Origin: an uncultured Clostridia bacterium | GTDB taxonomy: Bacteria; Bacillota; Clostridia; Christensenellales; Borkfalkiaceae | Direction: 5' to 3' | Assembly (NCBI GenBank): GCA_947627015.1 | Contig: CANQUL010000001.1 | Location: forward strand, 25,232-89,231 | DNA length: 64,000 bases | Part shown: positions 14,761-42,396 of the stretch, one piece after another | Position numbering within the stretch: position 1 is the first letter of the stretch | How the letters are laid out: each line of letters begins with the position of its first letter | Position numbers and translations under genes: made by a program | Notes under the pieces: generated by a model | What the model was told of the DNA's origin: nothing | The model's input: only the letters and a program-made list of their open reading frames with translations | Databases searched by the model: none

Positions 14761-17700
14761 TTATGCGGGATCGGTCTCACTGTCGACGACAAATTCGTTG
14801 TCGTCGATATGGAACTTGACGACCTTTTTCGTCACGGTGCTCGTGAAGGTGTAGTAGGTCACTCCTCCTTCGACTGTCTTTGTATAAGAGACGACCTCGG
14901 GGTGATTGACGCCGCCTTCTCCGGGATTGTAGACCCAAAGCCGATCGCGGGAGAAAATGGTGATGCGGTTATATTTGATTTCAGCCCCATCTGCATTTTT
15001 ATAATAAATCGCTCTCGTGGGTCCCCAGATCTCAATCGCATCGTTGTCGTTGAAATCATAGACGTAGACACCCTCGAAGTAGCCGGTCTCGCCGACCTCG
15101 CCTCCGTGGAAGTTGTTTCCGTCCCAAGTAAAGCTACCCGAATAGAGCAACTCGCCCGCCTTCAGGACAGCGCCGACGGATTTATCCGGCTTGAGCCAAA
15201 TAAACTGATACACGATGCCGTCGACTGTCTTGATGTCCTGGCTCTCATGCTCAACGGTCACCGAAAGGGTGAAGCCGTAATCTCCGGATTCGACCGTAAT
15301 CTGAAGTTTCAGCGTAGTTTCCCGATCGTTATTGAGGAATGTCACGGACGTATTCAGCTGATACCCCGCTCCAAACGCATCGCCTTCCTGCAAGCCGCTA
15401 TCAACGAAGAAGAACTGATTCGCAATGCCGACCACCGCATACTTCCCACTGACGGAAAACTTGATGGATTGAGAGTTGCTGACGGCTTTCCCGTCTTTGC
15501 CGAGTTCAAACCAATTCGCGGTCCCATAGATCATAGAGCCCGCGAACGGCTCTTTCGAGATCGCGACATAGGTCAGTCCGTAATATTCGTAAACGACCGT
15601 GCCAACGCCGCGCTCCGTATCAAGTTCACCGTCCGTCCCTTCGGGCGTTTTTTCACCGATATTCGTATGCAGCTTGCCGTTCGTGTAGGTGTAAGTTCCC
15701 TGCTTGTCTACGCCGTCAAAATAGATGAGGTTGCCCTTTCCGTCGAGATAAAGACGATACGATGTACCGGAGGAAACATAATACACGCCCGCCTCCTGCT
15801 CTGCCGCAAACACATAGGTCTTGGCTGCCTCATCGAGCTGAAGGATATAGACGGCTCCGGCTTCGTCGGCATAGACGATGTCCGAAGAATCACCGAATAC
15901 CTTATAGATGTATTCCTTTCCGTTCGTCTGAATGGTGTAATAGCCGTCGAGCGTCACGGTGGTATCGCCGTTCCGATAGGTTCCCGCAAGACGGGTCTCG
16001 ACTACGGAGAACTTCAGGTTGTCTTCGTAATCACCGTAATAGCCCTCAAGCAGATTCTCGAGATTGCGGTTGTACGTCCACTCTTTATCTTGCCCGTTGA
16101 GCGTGAACATGAACTTGCTGCCGATGATGATGTACGTCGTGCTGACCGTCTTGCCCTTGAAGGTGAGCGTAATGGTGCCGTCGTACTCCTTGGTGGATCT
16201 CCCGTCAAGGATCGCCTTTGCGCCGTTGGCGATGTCGTAGTAGACCCCAGCCTCTTCTCCGAGTCTGATGTAGGACTCTGCGCCGACCGTAAGGTTCCCG
16301 GACGCGGAATCGTACTTCGCTTCCGTAAGCCCCGTGATGCCTTCAATCGTAATGGCGCCGTTTTCACCGACCGTATAGGACCCAACGTTCGTTGCACCGT
16401 CCTCGCTGTAATAGGTCACCTTTCCGTAACCGTCCAATACATAGAGGTCGGAATTGACATCGCCGTAGGTGCCGGCTTCGGCGCCGCGAAGGTTGAGGTC
16501 CATATCTTCCATATCGAAGGAAGCATAGAGGTCAAAGGTCTTCATCTCGCCGTCCGAAAATTCGGTATATACTGTAATGTGTTTGGGATCGCTCTCGGCG
16601 CCGTAACCGGGCAGCGTGCCGATATAGACATAGCCGTAACCCGTCACTTCGCCGTCCTCCGTAAATTCACACAACGTGTAGCCCGAATCGGTCCCGCTCA
16701 TGATGATCTTCCCGAAATCGGTGTAATATTCCGTACCCTTTGCAAAGACTCCGCTCGTCTTGAGCTGGCCGAAATCCTTTGTTGTAATGGTTTGGGCCGT
16801 GAGTTCATCGTCCGCGTTATATATGAGACAGTCTCTCAGCGAGGCATTGAACGCATCGACAAAGGGAAGACACGGCGCGGGACCGTAATCCCAAATATTG
16901 TAGTCATAATCACCGGTCGTAGAAAGCGGCGTCCAGATCTTGACCGTTCCGTATCCCTCCAAAGCAAGCTGACTGTAGAGTACGGAGGAGAACTGCGTGG
17001 TCCCGAAAGAGCCCCCGATCCCCGAATACGTGAACGCACCGTCCTCGATGACGGGAGCATGTTCTCCGCGGAAAATTATCTCCGCAAAAACACCTTGACC
17101 GAAGAGGGCATCCGCTTCGATGCGCTCGATCCCGCTTCCGAACGAGACGCTCAAAATCGTACCCGTATTGATGCCGTTGGAGATAAAGGTAGAGAACGCG
17201 TAGGAGCCGACGGACTTTACGGAATCGGCAAAGGACAGGAACCGGATCGAACTGTTGTTCACGCCCGCACCGGCCGCAACACGCGTGATGCCCTCGGGCA
17301 CATCATATACGATGGCCGTCCCCACATAGTCATAGAGCGTCGAACCGTCGATGACTTCACCCGCGGGATTGGCCGTAAGTTTCTTGGTAGACCACTTTGC
17401 GGCGTCGATCTTGTAGACGTCGCGTGAGCCGTCCTCCTTGTTGAAGAACACGCTGTCATAACCATAGAGGTCGCTCACGCAAACTTCGTCGTCCGTTACG
17501 ATCACGGCAAGCCGGCCCATGCCGACATAGATAAGGGCATCGCCGCGATAGATGCCCTCATAGGCGACATATGTATCGCGATCTTCATCGGAAAGATTGT
17601 AGAGGCCGCCCGTAAATCCCATGGCTTGGAGGGCATTCTCGATGGCTTCCATCTTCTCCTCGTCGGTTTCGAAGTCGTTCCCTTCGACGAGTTTGTCGAG

Positions 17701-18723
17701 CGCACTCTGCGCCGCAAAGGTGGTCAGATCTCCCGCCGAAAGCGCGTTGCGTCCGATGGTGGGGATATCGCCCGCAAAGGAGATCTCGAACTCGCCCGAC
17801 GTATCGTTCTTACGGAAGGCGCTGACGCCGATCTTGACCGTGGAGGCGGGTACCATGACCGCGATGAGCTTTGTGTTTTCAAAGGCGCTGTCCCCGATCT
17901 CCGTGGCCTCGCCGAGGTCGACGGCAATGAGGTTGGTGTCGCTGAAAGCGTGCTCGCCGATGGAGACACGGCCCTTGAGTTCGAGGATCTCGATCGACGT
18001 GTTGTTCTCGAATGCCTGCGCATCGATGACGCGGATGCCGTTCTCGATGACGACCTCCGACGCCGTGAGCGCCTTCATATCCCCGACACGGATGACGGGA
18101 GCGCCCGCGTAGGTCGAGGGAATGACCACCTTATCCGCAAAGGCATAGCCCTCTTTGGCCGTGATCATATAAGTTCCCGAGCTGCCGATGGCGCTGTACA
18201 CGAAGCCGTTCTCCTCGTGCACGACGGGATTCCACTTGGCGAAGAGCCACAGTTCGCCCGTCACCTTTGCGCTGAAATCGTACGTCTGCGTGAGCGCCTC
18301 GTCGGTGTACCATCCGTCAAAGGTGTAGCCGTCGCGCGTCGGCGCCGCGGGCCGGGAGACTGTTTCCCCTTCCGCCACCGTGGAATCGGCGACCTCCGTT
18401 CCGTCGCCTTCGACAAAGTGGACGGTAAAGTTCTCCGCGACCTTGTCCCATTTGGCATGGAGCGTGAGAGATTCCCCGACCGTCTCGTCGAAAGAGAAGG
18501 GTTCGGTGCACGCCGCGTCCTTGAACCAGCCGCCGAAGGTGTACCCGTCCCGCGTCGGCGCTGTGGGCTCTGCGATCTTGCCGTTTTCGGCGATCTGCGC
18601 CTCGACGCCCGATCCGTAGGCCGAATCGAAGGACACAACGATCGTCTTGTCGCAGGCGGCAAAGGCGAGAGACGCCGTGAGCGCGGCCGCGACCGAAAGA
18701 ATGAGTCCAAGTTTCTTTTTCAT
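14761..18723 (-). CDS. Large lipoprotein with InlB-type and BspA leucine-rich repeats
   Basis: 1320 residues from ATG 18723 (MKKKLGLILS), eight bases behind AGGAGG. A lipoprotein signal ends at LAFAAC near residue 24. Two Listeria-Bacteroides (InlB B-type) repeats follow, at about residues 30-90 and 95-160, each with RDGYTF-GW core and ending in LxAKW. Next are BspA-type leucine-rich repeats (residues about 200-310 and again about 450-580; motifs such as IEILELKGRVSIGEHAF). From about residue 650 to the end, beta-rich repeats carry a recurring LDGYGK-like core. These repeat classes are typical of secreted adhesins and host- or surface-interacting proteins; the partner cannot be inferred. Monocistronic with its own promoter and terminator. 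Confidence 0.85.
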   Translation of the reverse strand: MKKKLGLILSVAAALTASLAFAACDKTIVVSFDSAYGSGVEAQIAENGKIAEPTAPTRDGYTFGGWFKDAACTEPFSFDETVGESLTLHAKWDKVAENFTVHFVEGDGTEVADSTVAEGETVSRPAAPTRDGYTFDGWYTDEALTQTYDFSAKVTGELWLFAKWNPVVHEENGFVYSAIGSSGTYMITAKEGYAFADKVVIPSTYAGAPVIRVGDMKALTASEVVIENGIRVIDAQAFENNTSIEILELKGRVSIGEHAFSDTNLIAVDLGEATEIGDSAFENTKLIAVMVPASTVKIGVSAFRKNDTSGEFEISFAGDIPTIGRNALSAGDLTTFAAQSALDKLVEGNDFETDEEKMEAIENALQAMGFTGGLYNLSDEDRDTYVAYEGIYRGDALIYVGMGRLAVIVTDDEVCVSDLYGYDSVFFNKEDGSRDVYKIDAAKWSTKKLTANPAGEVIDGSTLYDYVGTAIVYDVPEGITRVAAGAGVNNSSIRFLSFADSVKSVGSYAFSTFISNGINTGTILSVSFGSGIERIEADALFGQGVFAEIIFRGEHAPVIEDGAFTYSGIGGSFGTTQFSSVLYSQLALEGYGTVKIWTPLSTTGDYDYNIWDYGPAPCLPFVDAFNASLRDCLIYNADDELTAQTITTKDFGQLKTSGVFAKGTEYYTDFGKIIMSGTDSGYTLCEFTEDGEVTGYGYVYIGTLPGYGAESDPKHITVYTEFSDGEMKTFDLYASFDMEDMDLNLRGAEAGTYGDVNSDLYVLDGYGKVTYYSEDGATNVGSYTVGENGAITIEGITGLTEAKYDSASGNLTVGAESYIRLGEEAGVYYDIANGAKAILDGRSTKEYDGTITLTFKGKTVSTTYIIIGSKFMFTLNGQDKEWTYNRNLENLLEGYYGDYEDNLKFSVVETRLAGTYRNGDTTVTLDGYYTIQTNGKEYIYKVFGDSSDIVYADEAGAVYILQLDEAAKTYVFAAEQEAGVYYVSSGTSYRLYLDGKGNLIYFDGVDKQGTYTYTNGKLHTNIGEKTPEGTDGELDTERGVGTVVYEYYGLTYVAISKEPFAGSMIYGTANWFELGKDGKAVSNSQSIKFSVSGKYAVVGIANQFFFVDSGLQEGDAFGAGYQLNTSVTFLNNDRETTLKLQITVESGDYGFTLSVTVEHESQDIKTVDGIVYQFIWLKPDKSVGAVLKAGELLYSGSFTWDGNNFHGGEVGETGYFEGVYVYDFNDNDAIEIWGPTRAIYYKNADGAEIKYNRITIFSRDRLWVYNPGEGGVNHPEVVSYTKTVEGGVTYYTFTSTVTKKVVKFHIDDNEFVVDSETDPA

Positions 18724-18756
18724 ATTGACCTCCTGTGACGCACGGCATTGAGGATA

Positions 18757-18805
18757 TTTTTGCATAATTTACACAATTATGCAAAAAGCGGGTTCCCGCT
18801 TTTGC
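18757..18805 (-). promoter_or_regulatory. Two overlapping, mutually exclusive leader hairpins
   Basis: Hairpin A (18781-18805) pairs GCAAAAGCGGG with CCCGCTTTTTGC and ends in a T run, like an intrinsic terminator. Hairpin B (18757-18787) is a perfect 13-bp inverted repeat, TTTTTGCATAATT/AATTATGCAAAAA, around a five-base loop. They share 18781-18787, so both cannot form at once. They lie between the promoter and the lipoprotein start. Confidence 0.7.
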
Positions 18806-31860: not shown

Positions 31861-34800
31861 TTATTCATCTTTTTCGGCGGGAGCCTCGGCCTCTTGGGTC
31901 TCGGTTTCCTCGGCGGGAGCCTCGGCTGCTTCCTCGGTCTCTTGTGCTTCTACCTCCTCAACGGGAGCCTCTTCGGCTGCTTCGGCAGGAGCTTCTTCGG
32001 CTGCTTCGGCAGGAGCCTCTTCAGCTTCCTCGACAGGAGCCTCTTCAGCTTCCTCGACAGGAGCCTCTTCGACTTCCTCGGCGGGAGCCTCTTCGACAGG
32101 AGCTTCGGCCTCGGCGGGCGTCTCTACGGCTTCCTCGTCCTCGATCGCCTCTTCGGTGTCCTCGGCTTCGGGCTCATTCTCGGAGCCGCTGTAAGACTCG
32201 ATCTCGACTTCGGGAAGGGCGGGAGCATTTTCGATGACGTCGGAGGCATCCATATTCCAGAATACGGGTGCGGGAACCTGCTTCTCCTTGATCTGGCCCT
32301 CGGAGATGAGCTGCTCGTTGGACTTGTAAGGAAGCGTGTAATCCGTCGTCGGGAGTTCACCCTGTGTAAGCCCGAGCTTCTGCATCACAAGGTCGATGAT
32401 CGCCTTGGCGTACTTCGCGGTACGCGCGTTGCGGATCTTGAGCTTGGTAGGAACGTCGGCGTATTTCTTCGTCTTGGAGACATCCTTGGCGTGGTAGCGA
32501 GCGTCGACTTCCTTCGGATCGATCGCGAAGTACAGGAACAGCGACTTGCCCTTGAACTGGAACTTGGCGATCTTGTTACGTCCCTTGTTGAAGGTATCGT
32601 ACTTCCAGCTGACGCGGGAACGAACGTACTTGTAGGACAGGATGTAGTTCTTGAGTTCGGAGTAGAGCTTCTGGAGCTCGCTCTCGGCCTGCGTGAGACG
32701 TGCGGTGAAGCTCCTGTCGAGAATGGTCATGACTTCGTCTTCCGGAGCAATGACCTCCTCTTCCTCGGCCGGCCGGTCGAGGCCTGCCGCCGCAAGCAGA
32801 TCCGCAGCGGGCTTGGGCTCCTCTTCGCTCTCTTCGACCGCGGGCTCTTCCTCGGCCGCTTCTTCCGTAGGCGCCGCGGCGATCGCTGCGACGGGCTCTT
32901 CTTCGGTTGCTTCTTCCACAGCTTCCTCGGCGGGCTCTTCGGCAATCTCTTCGGCTGCTTCCTCGACGGCCTCTTCTTCGGTTGCTTCTTCGGTTGCTTC
33001 TTCCGCAACCTCTTCGACGGGCTCTTCGGCAGTCTCTTCGACGGTCTCCTCTTGCTTGGTTTCCGTCGGCGTCTCTTCGGCAGTCTCTTCCTTCGCCTCT
33101 TCTTCGGCCTTCTCTTCCTTCGCGAGCTTGATGCGGGCGATCAGGATGATGACGACGATGAGAGCGATGAGAAGGAGCACCGCGACGACGATGAGGAGGA
33201 TGAGCAGCCACATCGGCATGCCGAACATCTCTTGCTCAAAGAATCCGAGGGTCTTGTGTCCGACGATGAGGAAGTCGGAGAAGTCCCCGATGGTGAGCGT
33301 GATCTTGCCTCCCTCTGCGGCCGCATCCGTCGTGATATACGTTCCGTTGTGGATGTGGACCACGGTCATGGTGCCGGCGAGCTTGGGCAGGGTGTTGATG
33401 GTGATGGTGAACGTCACGCCCTGCGGAACGGGGACGGTCGCGCCGCTCTCGTCGACGAGCTTGATGTCGTACGAGAAGTTGCTCGGATTGACCTTTTCGC
33501 CCTTGAAGAGCGCTTCGAGCTTGGCCTTGTCGACCGTGAAGTTCTCGTTCTTGGTGATGACAACGTGGTAGTCCTTGGAAAGGCTGCCGTTCTTGAGGGT
33601 GACGACAACGTCGCTGCCGAGTTTTCCGACTTCGGCGTCTGCATCGTACACATTGGGCGTAATCGTCCAAGACTGCGTGAAGGTTGCAACCGTCTTTTCG
33701 GTGTTGAGCGTACCGCCGGCAAGCATATAGTTGTCGATGTATTCGCTCTTGAGGGTGAAGGTAGCAGTTGCGGTGAGAGTCTTTCCGGCTTCCTTGGACG
33801 TATTGCCGGTCACATTCATCGTCACGTAGTCCTTACACGAGTCGGGCGTGATGGCAGGAGTCGGCGTGATGGTCTGTTCCTTCCCGTTGTCCGTGAAGGT
33901 CGTCGGGGTCCACGTCACCGAGATGGTGATAGTCGCCTTTGCGACGGTGAACTCTTTTCCATTGAAGTCGACGGGCAGGTTGTTAAGTTTCGTGCCTGCG
34001 GCCGTAAGCGCAGCCTCATCGGGCGTGACCTTTACGGTGTACGTCCCGGCGTTCTTGACCTCGATCGTCGCCTGATCGTTCACGGTGAGCTTGAGGAAGC
34101 CGAGGACGGTCGCCTGCTTATCGACGGGGATGTTCGTTGCGCTGAGGTCGACCTTGATGCCGGCGAAGAAGTCGGTCCCGTTATAGGTGAGGCCGTCGAT
34201 GCCGGCGATCTTGGCGCCTGCGAGATTATACTCGATCCCCTCGATGGTAAGGGTTGCGGTGCGCTCGAACGGAGGCTGATCCTCTCCCGTTACCACATAG
34301 TTGTTGCTCACGAGCGTGACGGTTACGACGATGGTGTATTCGCCGATGTCACCGATCTCGTTGAACGCGATCGTGTCGCCGTCCTTCTTGTAGGAGTATG
34401 CGACGGTGTAATACTTCTCCTCGTAGGTGTAGGTCTGGAACTCGGACTCGGTGAGCGCTTCGCCGTACGTCTTGGTGAAGGTTGCATTCCATGCCGCGGG
34501 AGCCGCGATCGCCTTCTTGGTGATCTCCCAAGTCAGCTTGATCTCCTGCTCGGCGGTGACTTCTTCACCCTCGTACTTCAGCGTGTAGTGCTCCGTGTCT
34601 ATGAGTGTGAGGAGACCGGTCGCTTCGTAATTTGCGCCTGCGTCGGTCTTTTTGTTCTGCTCGGACTCGAACGTGAGGATTCCCTCGTAATCGGCCGCCT
34701 TGCCAAAGGCAATCGTTGCGGTGTGGGCTTGTTCGTCGTATTCGATCGTGGGCTTTGCTTCGCCGTCGATCATGACCGTGAAGTCGGCCTCGGTGAGATC

Positions 34801-37800
34801 GATCTTTGCCTTCTCGATGGTCCAGCTGAAGGTAAACACGCTATCTCCGGTGAGCGTGTAGTTTTCGTTCTTGGCGGCGAAGGTGAGCTTGCCGGCGTAG
34901 CTATTGACCTCGGTTTCCGTGAGATTCTCGGCCGTGACATTGAAGTAATCGGTCACTTCGCCTTCGACCTCTTCGCCGTTGAGCTTGAAGGCGACAATGT
35001 AGGAGATCGTGTAACCGTCCTTCTGATACGGCGTCTTCCAACCGGTCTCGAGGTCCTTGTCATCATATTGGAAGGTGACGCTTAAGATCTTGAGTTCGGA
35101 CTTGAGGATCTTCCATGCGTACTCCCCGGTGTACTGCGAGACGGCTTCTTCCTCGACGAGGAAGGTGTAGTTGGCAGAGGCGTCCTCGGTCAGCTTGATC
35201 GTAAGGGACGCCGTGTACACCCCGGCGTTTATCTCGCTGACCTCACCCGTGGGCGTGTATTTCTCAAAGAGATCCGTGGAAACGTCCTCGCCGTCCTTGT
35301 CGGTCAAATCGACGTCGGCGGTAACCGTGTGTGCCGTGGCGTTGTAATAGACTGCATTTTCCGGAATCGCCGTCCCATCGATCAGCCAGCTGATGCCGGC
35401 CTTGACTTCTTTCTTCTCGATGTTGACTTCGAAGGACTCATAGGACTTTTTGTAGCCGCCGATGTCGTCGTCCAAGACATACTCGGTGACTTCAACGGTG
35501 TAGGTGCCGCTTTGGGCAACGTTCTGAACCGTGTAGGTGTCGCCGTCGACCTCGAGGGTCTCCGGCTCGTCCCCGCCCGTGGGCAGGAAGCTCCATTTAT
35601 ATGTATAGCGCGCGTACGGGACGCCGTCTGCATTGACTTTGAGTTCGTAAAACGTGTCTTCGTCGTATTCCGCTTTGATGGGAGCGGCCGCTGCGCCGTT
35701 GACCGTGCCCGTCAGTTCGAACTCGGTCACAGCGTAGAACTTGGCGTCCTTCGCGGGCATGGTATCGGCTGTTTCGCCCTTTTCGTCGATCCAGTACAGC
35801 ACTTCATACTGCTTGCCGTTCTCTTCGACATATTCGGGACGGGCAAAGCGTTCGACGGTTGCGCCTTCGGGAAGGAAGCCCTCGCGGACGGCCTCGCCGC
35901 CGACGATGTATTCCACTTTATATACGCCGGGGAACTCTGCCTTGAGGTCGAGGTCAACGGTGTACACCGTGTCCTCGCCGAGGAGCGTCTTTGCCTTGTC
36001 GACAAGGTCCGCAACGGACTCGAAGCCGTGGTTGTTGAGCACGGACGAGACCTTGTTGAATACCTTTTCGAGGTCGATGGTGTAGCTGCCCTTGTGCGAA
36101 TAGTGGTTGTTGCCGTCGTAGAGGTCGACGAGCGCGCCGTCCTTTACGTTCTGGGGAAGATATCCGAACAGCTTTTCGGCATAGCCCTTGAACTTCTCAT
36201 AGAGGTCGTTAATCCGGTCGAGCCCGACGGTGTTCTCGAACTTTTCGATATAGCTTACGATCTTCGAGTTGAACGTCTTGCTGTTCGCAACGATGTCACG
36301 CACGGTATTTGCATCGTACTTGGTCCAATCGATGCGGTTGACAACACCGAGGAACTTGTTTACGAGCTTTTCGACAGCCGTGTTGTCGAGACGGGCGATG
36401 AGGGACTTGACGACGGGGATATCCCTGAGGAATTCGGTCGCTTCGTCATACGTCCAGCCCTTGTTGGCGAGCTGCTGGGCTCTGCGCGAGAAGGCGTTGA
36501 TGACCCGGTCGATGTCCGACTTCTCGATGCGGACGCCGAACACGGATTCGAGATAGCGGTTGAAATAGGTATCGATAAAGTCGCCGTTCAGGAAGTTGTT
36601 GAACCACTTCTGGAAGTCGATGCCCTTGATATAGGTTATGAGATCATCATAGGAATAGCTCTCGGCCTTATCGAAGATGTCCTGCGCAGTCTTTCCGAAC
36701 AGGGAGAAGATCTTGTTCTTGAGCGAATCGGAGATCTGCGTGGTCTCGGTCAGTTTGAGGAAGAGGTCGGAAAAGGCTTCCGGAACGCGGACGTTGACGG
36801 AGAGGTCGTTGCCGCTGAGCGACACGTCGATGTGCTCTGCGATGACACGGGCAGCATCCTGAATGTGCGTCGTATCGCCGAAGAAACCGAACGTGAGGTG
36901 GAACCCGATGTCGCCGAAGGTCGTCTTGACCATGATGTCGGCTTCGATGAGGTTACGGAGTTCCGCCTGCCCCATTTCGGCGATCTCGCCGGGACGGGGG
37001 ATGAGGGAAAGAAGGCTCTTGAGACCGGCCTTGCTGAACCCGTTCGTCTTGGAGTAGATCTCGTTGCCGTTGACGGAAATCCCGCTGAATGCGGCGACGA
37101 GCTGTTCCATCGTGATGGTGGGCGCCTTGCCGCCGTTCGCTTTGACCGTGGTGACCGATTCCTGAACGACTTCGTTCTTCTGCGTTTCCCACTTTTCGAC
37201 GTCGAACTCGGCCTGCTGCTCGTGGGACATCGATCCGACTGCGTCCTTGGCTGCATTAAAAGCGTTGTCTACGACTTCGTTCATGACTTTCTGAACTTTG
37301 CCGAGGACATCCTGAAGGTCTTCGCCCTTGGACACCTGATTTTCGACATAGGTGCCGACCGCGTAGTCGAGGAGGGCCTTGTACTCGCCGTCGACGAACT
37401 TCTGGAATTCGTCGGGTTGGCCGAGACGCTCTTCAACATAATCTTTGAACTGTTTCAGCAGCTCGTTGTTGTTGAGAAGGTTCTCGACGTCTCCCGAGTA
37501 TCCGGGAAGTTCGACCCCGCCCGGTGTCGATGCGTAGAGCGCGACCGTCGCGATGTGCGCCGCGGGATCGTCCTCGTTGCCCTGCAAAATGCTCTGCATG
37601 ACGATCTCTTTGACGGCGGCTACAACACCGTTCACGAGCTCCTTGGCCTCTTCGCGGTTTGCATCGAGGTACGTGCCAAAACTATCGCTGAGACGGAACT
37701 CGAGCGAGTCTTTGGAGTACTTCAACTCATACCAACCGGAGGAAACCGTTTGCGTCTCGGTGGCGCCGTCCGCAGCTCCCGCTTCGAACCCGTTGCCCAG

Positions 37801-37881
37801 CGACACGAAGCCGCAGAGCATCAGCGCGAAGGACAGGAACACGAGAAGGGCGAGCGTCAGCTTTCTGCCAATCTGTTTCAT
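31861..37881 (-). CDS. Giant single-pass envelope protein with MBG/Ig-like repeats and acidic cytosolic tail
   Basis: 2006 residues. A signal peptide (residues 1-36, ending near EAGA) is followed by a helical region (about 45-600, containing segments such as LNNNELLKQFKDYVEERLG), then a series of about nine beta-sandwich repeats to residue 1550 with MBG/YDG-like endings (AGTYTVKVTP, WEITKKAI, SWTIEKAKI). A single membrane helix lies near 1555-1582 (WLLILLIVVAVLLLIALIVV). Inside the cell are an acidic Glu/Ala/Thr repeat (about 1583-1700), a compact basic module (about 1718-1835) and a second acidic repeat to the end. This second half is unlike normal adhesins, which have short tails. GGGAG precedes the start. 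Monocistronic. Confidence 0.8.
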   Translation of the reverse strand: MKQIGRKLTLALLVFLSFALMLCGFVSLGNGFEAGAADGATETQTVSSGWYELKYSKDSLEFRLSDSFGTYLDANREEAKELVNGVVAAVKEIVMQSILQGNEDDPAAHIATVALYASTPGGVELPGYSGDVENLLNNNELLKQFKDYVEERLGQPDEFQKFVDGEYKALLDYAVGTYVENQVSKGEDLQDVLGKVQKVMNEVVDNAFNAAKDAVGSMSHEQQAEFDVEKWETQKNEVVQESVTTVKANGGKAPTITMEQLVAAFSGISVNGNEIYSKTNGFSKAGLKSLLSLIPRPGEIAEMGQAELRNLIEADIMVKTTFGDIGFHLTFGFFGDTTHIQDAARVIAEHIDVSLSGNDLSVNVRVPEAFSDLFLKLTETTQISDSLKNKIFSLFGKTAQDIFDKAESYSYDDLITYIKGIDFQKWFNNFLNGDFIDTYFNRYLESVFGVRIEKSDIDRVINAFSRRAQQLANKGWTYDEATEFLRDIPVVKSLIARLDNTAVEKLVNKFLGVVNRIDWTKYDANTVRDIVANSKTFNSKIVSYIEKFENTVGLDRINDLYEKFKGYAEKLFGYLPQNVKDGALVDLYDGNNHYSHKGSYTIDLEKVFNKVSSVLNNHGFESVADLVDKAKTLLGEDTVYTVDLDLKAEFPGVYKVEYIVGGEAVREGFLPEGATVERFARPEYVEENGKQYEVLYWIDEKGETADTMPAKDAKFYAVTEFELTGTVNGAAAAPIKAEYDEDTFYELKVNADGVPYARYTYKWSFLPTGGDEPETLEVDGDTYTVQNVAQSGTYTVEVTEYVLDDDIGGYKKSYESFEVNIEKKEVKAGISWLIDGTAIPENAVYYNATAHTVTADVDLTDKDGEDVSTDLFEKYTPTGEVSEINAGVYTASLTIKLTEDASANYTFLVEEEAVSQYTGEYAWKILKSELKILSVTFQYDDKDLETGWKTPYQKDGYTISYIVAFKLNGEEVEGEVTDYFNVTAENLTETEVNSYAGKLTFAAKNENYTLTGDSVFTFSWTIEKAKIDLTEADFTVMIDGEAKPTIEYDEQAHTATIAFGKAADYEGILTFESEQNKKTDAGANYEATGLLTLIDTEHYTLKYEGEEVTAEQEIKLTWEITKKAIAAPAAWNATFTKTYGEALTESEFQTYTYEEKYYTVAYSYKKDGDTIAFNEIGDIGEYTIVVTVTLVSNNYVVTGEDQPPFERTATLTIEGIEYNLAGAKIAGIDGLTYNGTDFFAGIKVDLSATNIPVDKQATVLGFLKLTVNDQATIEVKNAGTYTVKVTPDEAALTAAGTKLNNLPVDFNGKEFTVAKATITISVTWTPTTFTDNGKEQTITPTPAITPDSCKDYVTMNVTGNTSKEAGKTLTATATFTLKSEYIDNYMLAGGTLNTEKTVATFTQSWTITPNVYDADAEVGKLGSDVVVTLKNGSLSKDYHVVITKNENFTVDKAKLEALFKGEKVNPSNFSYDIKLVDESGATVPVPQGVTFTITINTLPKLAGTMTVVHIHNGTYITTDAAAEGGKITLTIGDFSDFLIVGHKTLGFFEQEMFGMPMWLLILLIVVAVLLLIALIVVIILIARIKLAKEEKAEEEAKEETAEETPTETKQEETVEETAEEPVEEVAEEATEEATEEEAVEEAAEEIAEEPAEEAVEEATEEEPVAAIAAAPTEEAAEEEPAVEESEEEPKPAADLLAAAGLDRPAEEEEVIAPEDEVMTILDRSFTARLTQAESELQKLYSELKNYILSYKYVRSRVSWKYDTFNKGRNKIAKFQFKGKSLFLYFAIDPKEVDARYHAKDVSKTKKYADVPTKLKIRNARTAKYAKAIIDLVMQKLGLTQGELPTTDYTLPYKSNEQLISEGQIKEKQVPAPVFWNMDASDVIENAPALPEVEIESYSGSENEPEAEDTEEAIEDEEAVETPAEAEAPVEEAPAEEVEEAPVEEAEEAPVEEAEEAPAEAAEEAPAEAAEEAPVEEVEAQETEEAAEAPAEETETQEAEAPAEKDE
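31900..32110 (-). repeat. Degenerate tandem repeats coding an acidic C-terminal tail
   Basis: Near-30-bp units reading CTTCCTCGACAGGAGCCTCTTCAG-like on the plus strand repeat several times, coding EEAPVEEAEEAPVEEA-type peptides in the 2006-residue protein. The units are coding and not a CRISPR array. Confidence 0.85.
32830..33120 (-). repeat. Degenerate tandem repeats coding the first acidic cytosolic segment
   Basis: Short repeated blocks such as CTCTTCTTCGGTTGCTTCTT code AEEATEEATEEEAVEE-like peptides directly after the membrane helix of the same protein. Confidence 0.8.
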
Positions 37882-38052: not shown

Positions 38053-38112
38053 TAGATATTCGACAAAAACTTTTCATATATGGCATTTTTTTTGAAAAAT
38101 CGGGCTGGAAAA

Positions 38113-41100
38113 TCATTCCGACGGTTGCATATTTTCCCCTTCGGGCGGATTTTCGGCCTCGTCGGAGGTTGCCTCGCCCTCGACGGACGTCTCGGGAATG
38201 CTTTCCTCAGTCCGCTCATCGGGCTCGGTTTCGGCCACGGGGGGCTCGGTTTCGGCCGTGTCCTCGGGCACTTCCTCTGCCGTAGACGCCTCGATCTCGG
38301 GCTCGGAAATCTCCGTCTCGGGCTCGGAAGGCGGAACTTCCTCCGTTTTTTCGGCGATTTCGGGCGCGGAGGCCTCGGTTTCGGGCGATTTTTTGTCCTT
38401 CCGATAGCGATACGGGACGATTTCGTCGCTTGCGTACACGGCGGCGTAGATCTCGGGGTCGGGACGGGCATATCCGCTGCCGGGAACGGCATACCCGGGG
38501 GCTCCGTCATGCGCTTTGACGGGCTCGGGGGGCACCGTGTCCGCATCGTCGGCCTCCGTCTGCTGCGTCGCGGGCTCCTCTTCCGGCGCGGTGGGTTTCT
38601 CCGTCTCCGATGCAAGAATTCTGTCCGCACGGTCGATGTCCTGCGCGGGCGCGCGCTCTGCGGAAGGAATTTCGGCCGTCTGCACGGGAATTTGCGCCGA
38701 ATCGTCGGTTTTTTGCGATACAGGTCGCATTTCCGCTTCCCAAGGCAGGGGTTGCGCCCCCTCTTCGTCCTCCTGCGATGCGGGGACCTCCTCGGGCGCT
38801 TCGAATGTCTCCTCGGGGATCTCTTCGGGTCCCTCGGGCTTTTCGAACGTCTCGGGCGCGGGTACGGCCTCCTCGGGGACGGCTTTCTGCACGGCGGGTT
38901 CGGACATGGGCACGGCCTTTGCCGCCTTCTTTTTCTTCTTGCGGATATGCCGCACGACAAGGAATACGATGAGTGCGATGACAAAGGCGAGGAAGAGCGG
39001 GACGGCCCAATAGGCAATATGGATCAGGCGCGAGAGCGTCGTGTTGCCTGTCGGAATGACGGGCAGGGGTTCGCTCCGGAACGTCGCGTTGTACACGGCG
39101 TCGCCCGTGACCGTCTCGATGGGCTTATCCCACCCCGTAAAGACATATTGGTACGTGTCGTCGGGCGCCTTGACGGGATCGGCGGGCGGAATGACCGTGT
39201 CACCGTAGTGCATGGTGCGCGTTGCGAGCGTCATGCCCTCCGACCGGAAGGTGATGGTGTATTCGTAGAAGGCGGCCGTTGCGACGACGGCGACCGAACT
39301 CTTGGGCATCGTAAAGACCATGTCGGAAGAGACGGCGACCTCTGTTCCGTCCGCGGCGACGACCGAAATGCTGCCGAGGTACACGCCGGGCACGCATTGC
39401 GCCGTGATCGTGACGGGCGTCCCCGCGCGCACGAGGGTCTCTTTGACGGACAGGGTGACCGATTCGTTGCCCGCGAGGCTGATCTTGAACATGGGGTAGA
39501 GATCGTATTGTACGCCCGCATACATGGTGAAGGAGATCGCGGTCGCGGTGATCTCGGCATGCGTGCGGCTCGTGACGCCGTTCTCGTCCGTTCCGAAGAG
39601 GTAGGAATTGACGGGGTCGAAGTTGCCCACGATGACGATATCCACGGGGCAGGTGACCTTCGCCCGCGCGGAGGAGGTGAAATCGATGGAGAAGAGGGAG
39701 TCGCCCTCCGCCGTCATCAAGGCGGAAAATTTGATTTCACGCACTCCGCCTTCGGACATGATATGCACGGACGACGCCGAGAACGACGCGGTCGCGCTCA
39801 TGAAACGGAGACGGATGCCCGCATCCGACGCACTTGCGACGGCCACGAGGGAGGCCGCATCCACGAGGCTGTCGGGTGCGGAGGCGCAGTCGGCGGTAAA
39901 GACGTTCTCCGCGGAGGAATACGACACCCCGAGGAACTTTCCCCCCGCCTTGACGAGCGGATCGCGCTCGAACTCGGCGACATAGACGGCGTCCTCCGTT
40001 GCGGGCGCAAGGGGATGGTCCCAGCCCGTGAAGGTGTAACGGTATACGGAATCGGGTGCACGGACGGGGTCGCTGCCGTAGTCGGGCATATCCCCCGGCC
40101 AAACGGCCGTCTCGGTGCTGCGCGAATCCACCGACCATGTGATGAGGTAACTCGCCTCGAATTGAGCGACATAATGGACGGTCTTGTCCGTCATTTCGGG
40201 AAGCGGGGCGCCGTCCTCTCCGTACACGATGCCGCCCGAGATCCAACAGCCCGTAAACCGATACAGGCGGTTGCCCGCGCGGGTCTTTTGGGGAACGCCG
40301 AACCGTGCGGAATCATAGACGGGCGACGTCCCGTAGGCACATTCGTCCTCGATGTCCTTCCCGTCCAGCGACCAGACGACGCGGTACTTTATGGGAATGG
40401 CGCGGAAGCGGGGATAGAGCCTGAGGTCGCTCCCCTCTCCCTTGGGCGCGGGAATGTTCGTGATGTCGACGGGCTCGCCCGTCTCGTCCTCCCAGCCGTC
40501 AAAGACAAATTCGTATCCGGTCTCGCTCTTTACGGGGGTCCTTCCATTGTACTCCGCAAGGGTGCCGACGTCCACTTCCTCCAAGGTGCATTCGGGCATG
40601 GCCCCCTCCGATTTGGTCAGATAGAAGTAAACGGTGACCGTACGGGCATTGCGGAAGTACTTCCGTACAGAGACCGACGCGGTGTATTTTCCGTCCCCTT
40701 CGGGAGCGTTGCGGTGCGTAAATTCGCCGTTTTTGAACGCCGCGGCGAGGGCGGTCTCCTCCTCGGTGGGACGGTACGGGACAGGTTCGGCGACTTGGGC
40801 GGGACGTTCCCCCGGATCCGGAACGACGGCGGGGGCGGGACCGGGAGCCTCGACGGCCGCGGGGGGATCGCCCGGATCGCGGATGGTAGGCATGCTGCCC
40901 GGGTCCTTGACCTCCTCGGGACGGACGGGCTCGTCGGGAAGGTTGGGATAGCCCCCCGTAAGGGGAAGGGCGTCGTCCTTGTCGGCAAGGACATTCTCTG
41001 CGCCGAGGACCTCGGCGGGGTCGCGGCGGCGCGTTCCGATGCGGTAGGAGGAATCGAGGAAGCGCTCGCCCGTCTTGTCGTACTTGTAGGCCTTGATATA

Positions 41101-42396
41101 GTCGGCAATGGGAGCGTTGTCGAGCGCATTGCAGAGGTAATAGAGCTGGGCGAGAAGGACCTCGTACTGCTCCGTACGCTTCATCATGGAGATACCCTTC
41201 CGGATGGGATCGAATCCGTTGAAATATTCGAGGCAACGGAAGAGCGTATTGAAGTTTTCGCTGAGCTCCTTTTGGCAGGTGACGTAGAAGATGTAGCGAT
41301 CCTCGTCGGTCTTGATGGTATTGTAGCGTTCGAGCAGCGTCCGAAGAGCGATCGTCGCCGTGTTGGCCCGTTCGACGGCCCCCTTCTCCGCGCCGGCAAG
41401 AACGATGGCGTCCTTTTCGGCAAGCACCCTTGTAACCGATTCTCCGAGGATGGCCCCCGAAATGGTCCGGTCGAGGCTCGTCATGGGCTTGGTCAGATAG
41501 TCGAGAATGGAGAGCTGATACAGGACCTTCTGCGCTTCGGGGGAAGCCGTGGCCTCGCGGTACTGCTCCATCTTCTGTTCATATGTCTGCAGATCGGCAA
41601 GATAGGTGCGGTAGCTCTGAAGATCGGCAAGGTACTTCCGTTCGATCTCCTCGCGCGCGTCGTACAGTTCCTTGTCCTTGCGGTACTGCTCGGCTTCGCG
41701 GAGATAGGCCTGATAGCGCTCGTTCTTCGACGTCCAGCTGCGGTTTTCCTCGAGATAGGTCCGATAGGCCTCCGAAGCCGTCTCGTACGCGGCAAGGGCT
41801 TCGACATAGCCGTCGTAAGCCGCCTTCTCACTCTCGTAGCGCGCGGTCTCGCGATCGGCGGTCTCGGCCGCCGTCTCCCCCGCCGTATAGGCCGAATTGA
41901 GAAAAGACGAAATGTCGCGGGCGCGGACGGTGAACTCCGTACGGTATTCGACCGAAACGGTATCGCCCGTCACGTTATCCGCGGTACCCATGTACGAAAA
42001 TATACCGTCCTTCTCGGACATGGGTGCCCCATTTACGCTGTATGGATTCCATGTGACGCGTACTCCGTTCTTCGCAAGATAGGAATAGGGACGGGCCGTG
42101 ATGCCGATCGTGTTCTCCTGTTCGGAATACTCCGCCGAGACGTAGGACGACGTGATGGCCGCCGTATAGCGGAGAGCAAAGGGCTCGTTTTTCTCAAGAT
42201 ATGCCCTTTCGGCGGCCGAAACGGGCTCTCCCGTAAATTGGGTGAGGAAATCGGCGGCATTCACCGTGAAGGAGGCGGTATCGCCCGCCCGCGTGTAGTT
42301 GTAGGGATCGGCTGCGGCCGCTTGGGCCGTGAGCACGGGACATAGGGCCGCGACGACCGAGAGCATGAGCCCCATTGCGGCCAAGGACTTTTTCAT
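38113..42396 (-). CDS. Giant single-pass envelope protein with Tyr-rich helix, Pro-rich segment and InlB-like repeats
   Basis: 1427 residues from ATG 42396 (MKKSLAAMGLML), behind AAAGGAGGACA. Signal peptide to about residue 28 (ending TAQAAAA). Regions: beta-type head (30-165); a long helix with tyrosine about every seven residues (168-280, for example YRTYLADLQTYEQKMEQY); a helical globular part (280-470); a proline-rich strand (475-545); several InlB-like repeats (GYEFVFDGWED, YRYTFTGWDHP, YQYVFTGWDKP); a membrane helix (about 1126-1150) followed by KKKKK; and an acidic Pro/Glu-rich cytosolic tail of about 270 residues. Role unknown, probably adhesion or envelope architecture. Adjacent to the 2006-residue protein, which shares the overall plan, but each has its own promoter. 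Confidence 0.8.
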   Translation of the reverse strand: MKKSLAAMGLMLSVVAALCPVLTAQAAAADPYNYTRAGDTASFTVNAADFLTQFTGEPVSAAERAYLEKNEPFALRYTAAITSSYVSAEYSEQENTIGITARPYSYLAKNGVRVTWNPYSVNGAPMSEKDGIFSYMGTADNVTGDTVSVEYRTEFTVRARDISSFLNSAYTAGETAAETADRETARYESEKAAYDGYVEALAAYETASEAYRTYLEENRSWTSKNERYQAYLREAEQYRKDKELYDAREEIERKYLADLQSYRTYLADLQTYEQKMEQYREATASPEAQKVLYQLSILDYLTKPMTSLDRTISGAILGESVTRVLAEKDAIVLAGAEKGAVERANTATIALRTLLERYNTIKTDEDRYIFYVTCQKELSENFNTLFRCLEYFNGFDPIRKGISMMKRTEQYEVLLAQLYYLCNALDNAPIADYIKAYKYDKTGERFLDSSYRIGTRRRDPAEVLGAENVLADKDDALPLTGGYPNLPDEPVRPEEVKDPGSMPTIRDPGDPPAAVEAPGPAPAVVPDPGERPAQVAEPVPYRPTEEETALAAAFKNGEFTHRNAPEGDGKYTASVSVRKYFRNARTVTVYFYLTKSEGAMPECTLEEVDVGTLAEYNGRTPVKSETGYEFVFDGWEDETGEPVDITNIPAPKGEGSDLRLYPRFRAIPIKYRVVWSLDGKDIEDECAYGTSPVYDSARFGVPQKTRAGNRLYRFTGCWISGGIVYGEDGAPLPEMTDKTVHYVAQFEASYLITWSVDSRSTETAVWPGDMPDYGSDPVRAPDSVYRYTFTGWDHPLAPATEDAVYVAEFERDPLVKAGGKFLGVSYSSAENVFTADCASAPDSLVDAASLVAVASASDAGIRLRFMSATASFSASSVHIMSEGGVREIKFSALMTAEGDSLFSIDFTSSARAKVTCPVDIVIVGNFDPVNSYLFGTDENGVTSRTHAEITATAISFTMYAGVQYDLYPMFKISLAGNESVTLSVKETLVRAGTPVTITAQCVPGVYLGSISVVAADGTEVAVSSDMVFTMPKSSVAVVATAAFYEYTITFRSEGMTLATRTMHYGDTVIPPADPVKAPDDTYQYVFTGWDKPIETVTGDAVYNATFRSEPLPVIPTGNTTLSRLIHIAYWAVPLFLAFVIALIVFLVVRHIRKKKKKAAKAVPMSEPAVQKAVPEEAVPAPETFEKPEGPEEIPEETFEAPEEVPASQEDEEGAQPLPWEAEMRPVSQKTDDSAQIPVQTAEIPSAERAPAQDIDRADRILASETEKPTAPEEEPATQQTEADDADTVPPEPVKAHDGAPGYAVPGSGYARPDPEIYAAVYASDEIVPYRYRKDKKSPETEASAPEIAEKTEEVPPSEPETEISEPEIEASTAEEVPEDTAETEPPVAETEPDERTEESIPETSVEGEATSDEAENPPEGENMQPSE

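Follow-up and report, generated by a model that had tools for sequence, protein, structure and literature searches.

A predicted helix/polyproline stalk with a 17-residue tyrosine repeat in a membrane-anchored surface protein of uncultured gut Clostridia

A 64,000-nucleotide stretch of DNA from an uncultured Clostridia bacterium of the Borkfalkiaceae (contig CANQUL010000001.1, positions 25,232 to 89,231; the whole stretch is referred to as the window) encodes a 1427-residue protein, here called the stalk protein, in which a long tyrosine-rich helix, a globular part and a proline-rich strand follow one another. The locus raises the question of whether helix and strand pair within the one chain, as they do in streptococcal antigen I/II, and, if so, whether the protein belongs to that adhesin family or has arrived at the same construction separately. 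The reading that we favour, with a probability of roughly 0.78, is a surface protein that crosses the membrane once and has, as its N-terminal half, a self-closing stalk of α-helix and polyproline II (PPII) strand bearing a head, with a transmembrane (TM) anchor and a co-encoded partner; the stalk taken by itself is likely.

In antigen I/II, the heptad tyrosines of the A-helix lock into PxxP pockets on the P strand, and in SpaP the V domain is lifted by more than 50 nm from a base stabilised by the N- and C-terminal domains (PMC7732690). This α/PPII stalk has been called a novel, unique hybrid motif found in a streptococcal adhesin (PMC3707005, on Larson et al. 2010), and in the GbpC/polymer adhesin domain proteins the sequences on either side of the head are considered to pair with each other (PMC7726212). 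Structures of this design have so far come from streptococcal adhesins, and the stalk protein appears to have a repeat length, a head and an anchor of its own.

Repeats of the helix and the proline strand

The gene occupies window positions 38113-42396 on the minus strand, with its ATG at 42396 and 1427 codons plus stop, in the frame and at the coordinates given by the first-pass annotation, and lies after rpoB and rpoC and before a gene for a 2006-residue protein (31861-37881). A long open reading frame on the opposite strand (38080-42345) has no support as coding; it is antisense to a conserved gene whose relatives all align in the minus-strand frame. Residues 168-545 (window 41895-40762) span the helix, head and strand, which together with the preceding domain are:

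41902..42315, minus strand: N-terminal β domain, residues 28-165 (AlphaFold2 strands, predicted local distance difference test score, pLDDT, mostly 81-95)
41548..41895, minus strand: stalk α-helix, residues ~168-283, with a 17-residue repeat and Tyr at positions 0/7/10 (composition, alignment, periodicity, AlphaFold2)
40969..41547, minus strand: predicted helical head domain, residues 284-476 (AlphaFold2; without a PDB fold, PDB profile or convincing Pfam match)
40762..40965, minus strand: proline strand, residues 478-545, predicted PPII, with a 19-residue repeat (alignment, AlphaFold2, periodicity)

This order agrees with the earlier description of a Tyr/Ala helix at about 168-280, some 190 residues of globular sequence and a proline-rich strand at 475-545. 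The layout is common to more than 30 orthologues, in which the stalk tyrosines and prolines are among the most conserved residues.

The helix segment is 13% Tyr and 17% Ala, and AlphaFold2 predicts it to be practically continuous (residues 168-246 and 248-282). Its tyrosines had been described as near-heptad, which has to be corrected: the spacing runs 7-3-7-7-3..., summing to 17. In an alignment of 19 sequences, in which orthologues are 30-44% identical to the stalk protein, the Tyr spectrum has its maximum at 3.40 residues per turn with a power of 12.3 (maximum of 200 shuffles, 1.9), compared with only 1.2 at 3.5 residues per turn; tyrosines recur at lag 17 203 times where 47 are expected, and the Ala and Leu spectra also peak at 3.40. 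The 17-position logo shows Tyr at 57-85% in positions 0, 7 and 10, Leu at 11 and 14 and Ala and charged residues elsewhere, which amounts to one narrow aromatic stripe with the Leu positions at its flanks, and Tyr 211, 228, 238, 265 and 272 are invariant. The true period of 3.40 explains why a single-sequence Fourier test, run at fixed periods of 3.5, 3.6 and 7, came out negative. In members from one other family (f19) the Tyr pattern is the same but the helix contains a phase slip, and for this reason their best single period is ~3.54.

The strand segment is 27% Pro, with prolines spaced ~3.1 residues apart. Its Pro, Val and Gly columns all recur at lag 19 (autocorrelation 0.45-0.47), where the whole-column profile also peaks, a value reached by none of 3000 shuffles; single columns and triplets were shuffled as two separate nulls. 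Eight prolines (478, 490, 493, 503, 508, 512, 522 and 528) are invariant among the 19 sequences, and a profile of the strand found no match in the PDB. An internal LPLTG at the start of the strand (residues 477-481; 40954-40968) was discarded as a sorting signal, being neither conserved nor C-terminal. The head between the two segments (~190 residues) is conserved and all-helical in the AlphaFold2 model. Foldseek searches of the PDB with both models described below returned nothing at E<=0.001, a head profile matched no PDB sequence and Pfam gave nothing convincing.

A rival reading makes the helix a dimeric or bundled coiled coil of the usual kind and lets the proline segment link head and β modules as a flexible spacer; long Ala/Glu-rich helices often dimerise, and surface proteins commonly carry proline-rich spacers. 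The repeats speak against both halves of this explanation, since the helix has a period of 3.40 rather than 3.5 and Tyr rather than Leu, Ile or Val as its core residue, and neither eight invariant prolines nor a 19-residue repeat would be maintained in a spacer. The model confidence and segment lengths given in the next section would also be unexpected for a spacer, and we regard this alternative as improbable.

Probable pairing of helix and strand

An AlphaFold2 model of residues 28-668, made with nine relatives in the alignment, has a mean pLDDT of 85. The proline strand has no regular DSSP state in this model, yet its pLDDT is 77-90, unlike that of a free linker. When residues 28-285 were left out, the head was unchanged, the proline segment fell to between 48 and 72 (63, 54, 51, 54, 48 and 72 per block) and the strand at ~569-580 dropped to ~40. 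The first-pass annotation had named as contrary evidence a helix packed on itself with the proline segment as a free linker, and the models point the other way. From the confidence lost on deleting the N-terminal domain and helix, we infer that the helix holds the proline strand and that the N-terminal domain holds the first strand after the proline segment, which would close the base.

The lengths of helix and strand are correlated across 32 sequences (rho 0.65). The N-terminal half of the helix, at the base, likewise correlates with the C-terminal half of the strand, also at the base (rho 0.68), compared with rho 0.39 for helix base and strand tip and negative values for helix tip and either strand half. 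Common helix/strand lengths are 131/72, the f19 members have 123/68, and shorter pairs are found in L055 (116/64), L049 (124/69), P0001 (124/70) and L013 (112/66). Shortened members lose residues at the N-terminus of the helix and the C-terminus of the strand, so that the changes sit at matching ends, as antiparallel pairing predicts.

The repeats also fit each other geometrically. In a simple wrapping calculation (assumed radius 7.5-9.5 Å), a strand following a 17/5 stripe is predicted to use 0.54-0.60 residues per helix residue, against 0.50-0.52 for heptads. The observed ratio is 60/106 = 0.57 overall and 9.5/17 = 0.56 per repeat, the strand repeat of 19 being 2 x 9.5. Antigen I/II repeats, of 82 and 39 residues (0.48), lie near the heptad value of 0.50.

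Taken together, these data suggest a stalk in which the helix (168-283), with its narrow Tyr stripe, would run outward to the compact helical head (284-476), from which the chain would probably return as a PPII strand (478-545) lying antiparallel in the stripe. With a 17/5 repeat the stripe would wind round the helix once per ~61 residues, a twist about twice as tight as that of heptads, and the base would be closed by the N-terminal β domain and the first β-strand (~569-580) after the proline segment.

Several points weigh against this arrangement. Pairing is deduced from the confidence of a model in which the helix-strand contact itself is not seen, and which was built on an alignment of only 10 sequences with a predicted template modelling score (pTM) of 0.42. 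The length covariation is uncorrected for phylogeny and comprises about five concordant events, with L004 (126/72) and L061 (122/71) fitting less well; the end points and radius of the wrapping geometry were picked by hand; and the helix matches to antigen I/II described below are sub-significant and may reflect Tyr/Ala composition. The deletion control, moreover, took out the N-terminal domain and the helix together, and this circumstance, along with the clear dependence of the strand at ~569-580 on one or the other, would suit an explanation in which the N-terminal domain or the β modules give the proline strand its order and the deletion effect reflects loss of the domain. The drop in pLDDT extends over the entire 54-residue strand, including its head-side end, a length that a 138-residue domain could not contact in full, and the periodicities and lengths of helix and strand match each other; ordering by the flanking domains is thus very unlikely, and a strand held by the helix is preferred.

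Relation to antigen I/II and other rods

The stalk protein shares with antigen I/II (SpaP/P1, SspB) the order of helix, head and proline strand, an Ala-rich helix before the head whose conserved tyrosines are fit for PxxP pockets as in the SpaP mechanism (PMC7732690), matching helix and strand contours and a base apparently closed from both sides. A conserved, predicted PPII strand follows the head; in AlphaFold2 its order depends on the N-terminal domain plus helix, and it may pair with the helix as in the family. The stalk protein differs in its 17-residue repeat (3.4 residues per turn) where antigen I/II has heptads (3.5), in its all-helical head in place of the V β domain or a GbpC-type head, in its TM helix and long cytoplasmic tail in place of a C-terminal LPXTG, and in a stalk of ~16 nm against more than 50 nm for SpaP (PMC7732690). 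Where antigen I/II has IgG-like C-terminal domains, only List_Bact_rpt-type repeats were found.

Sequence similarity to the family falls short of significance. A profile of the helix searched against all PDB sequences gave six matches, headed by three antigen I/II-type proteins at E 0.02-0.26, namely 6tzl (an S. mutans adhesin), 5uqz (GbpC, E 0.04) and 6e36 (antigen I/II). These three are a lead, not proof. In Pfam, none of Adhesin_P1_N, GbpC and the C-terminal domains of antigen I/II matched the stalk protein at E<=1, and a single one of the 19 members gave Strep_SA_rep (PF06696), at E 1.8. The PF18652 and PF08363 searches, the latter across the whole genome, lacked a positive control and carry no weight by themselves. 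GbpC (PDB 5uqz) resembles the stalk protein in the proposed pairing of sequence before and after the head (PMC7726212) and in the helix match, and differs in having a polymer adhesin domain (PF08363) and in being sortase anchored.

A true but distant member of the antigen I/II/GbpC family, its head replaced or diverged beyond recognition, would account for the shared order, for the three adhesins at the top of the helix-profile list and for the closure of the base by N- and C-side domains reported for SpaP (PMC7732690). The absence of family matches, a head unlike any PDB fold, the repeat of 17 instead of 7 and the missing C-terminal cell-wall sorting signal make such descent unlikely. What the evidence supports is that the stalk protein works like antigen I/II by the same mechanical design, which is a statement about mechanics rather than membership. 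The earlier proposal of antigen I/II-like folding gains support, as a variant, from the modelled deletion, the length covariation, the periodicities and the sub-threshold profile matches.

A stronger form of this interpretation, to which we give about an even chance, is a separate class of α/PPII mixed coiled coil of independent origin, with a fixed 34:19 register in which one 19-residue strand repeat spans two 17-residue helix repeats, wound about twice as tight as the heptad form, bearing a head of new fold and acting as the outer portion of a TM surface module that is independent of sortase and obligately made of two proteins.

The stalk profile also found a protein of another Clostridia family, L068 (G476:C278, 937-2874), with a 350-residue Tyr-heptad helix, a head of ~118 residues and a 161-residue proline strand. 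It has the same order as the stalk protein and matching contours (525 Å for the helix, 499 Å for the strand), whereas its helix is heptad (3.48) and three times longer and its head is not the helical head; the contig stops before any anchor. Other heads thus seem to be carried on rods of the same helix/proline design.

Anchor, partner gene and distribution

The assembly is longer than the first-pass annotation saw, with the N-terminal β domain, closing strand, β modules, cytoplasmic tail and partner gene in addition to the stalk. The remaining features are:

42316..42396, minus strand: putative signal peptide, residues 1-27 (inferred from sequence: MKKS, hydrophobic core, AQAAAA)
39061..40704, minus strand: β modules, residues 565-1112, including Listeria-Bacteroides-type repeats (weak Pfam match, alignment pattern, AlphaFold2)
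38953..39015, minus strand: predicted TM helix, residues 1128-1148, followed by RHIRKKKKK (read from sequence)
38116..38949, minus strand: acidic Pro/Glu-rich cytoplasmic tail, residues 1150-1427, ~280 residues of low conservation (sequence, alignment)
31861..37881, minus strand: partner gene, 2006 residues, with an ectodomain, one TM helix and an acidic tail with a conserved cytoplasmic domain (downstream in orthologous loci)

Single-protein searches of Pfam, NCBIfam and the PDB found one weak match, to PF09479 (List_Bact_rpt) at residues 1046-1091 (E 4.2e-5, under the family cut-off), and a YxFTGW...YTAxF pattern recurs in the β modules of the 19 aligned sequences. Elsewhere in the window, a 1334-residue protein (14761-18765, minus strand) with List_Bact_rpt and BspA-type leucine-rich repeats is another likely surface protein.

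The C-terminus carries no cell-wall sorting signal, and no sortase scored above cut-off in any of 25 genomes of the genus, including the source genome (88% complete). Sortases are present in several other families of the same order, and the positive control of the search works, so that a TM anchor fits the lineage; the protein would cross the membrane, as had been proposed, rather than being anchored to the wall, and its anchoring would fall to the β modules, TM helix and tail.

A full-length orthologue is found in 20 of 151 related genomes (33-44% identical over the match), and the N-terminal part of the partner in exactly the same 20. The partner always lies on the same strand directly downstream (in G034 it is split by a contig end) and is obligate and inseparable from the stalk gene. 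Its ectodomain matches no family, the N-terminal ~630 residues having no Pfam match. The cytoplasmic C-terminal domain (32302-32814, minus strand; ~150 residues), also without a Pfam family, is found again in 27 of 41 related genomes, frequently in more than one copy, across the genus and a few other families of the order, and appears to be an undescribed intracellular module of the lineage. In L032, L036 and L039, other genes lie between rpoC and the stalk gene (in L039, RsgI-like and ABC-2 transporter genes), and the site downstream of rpoBC may therefore be variable.

Of 396 genomes of the order, 23, belonging to 6 of 142 genera, have a single match each to the head profile, the weakest of these being doubtful. 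Outside the lineage, there was no full match in samples of 391 genomes from the class and 300 from the phylum, nor did the stalk profile match plasmids. Two of the weak class-level matches were rejected, namely G497, in which a TEPT repeat precedes an LPXTG-like end, and G626, a permease coiled coil. Named records of relatives, sought with an alignment of seven closer sequences, come from uncultured Clostridia of rabbit and sheep gut.

From the architecture, the head at the tip and the co-encoded partner would most likely act together to attach to or sense a surface or another cell. Most surface proteins of uncultured gut Clostridia have no assigned function, and the stalk/partner pair points to a paired surface system in these bacteria. 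If the structure is as proposed, helix/PPII pairing would occur in a second lineage that differs in repeat, head and anchor, and would become a general means of making a thin, rigid rod from one chain. L068 suggests that such rods can carry other heads, and simple sequence rules (17:9.5 or 7:about 3.5) would serve to recognise and design them.

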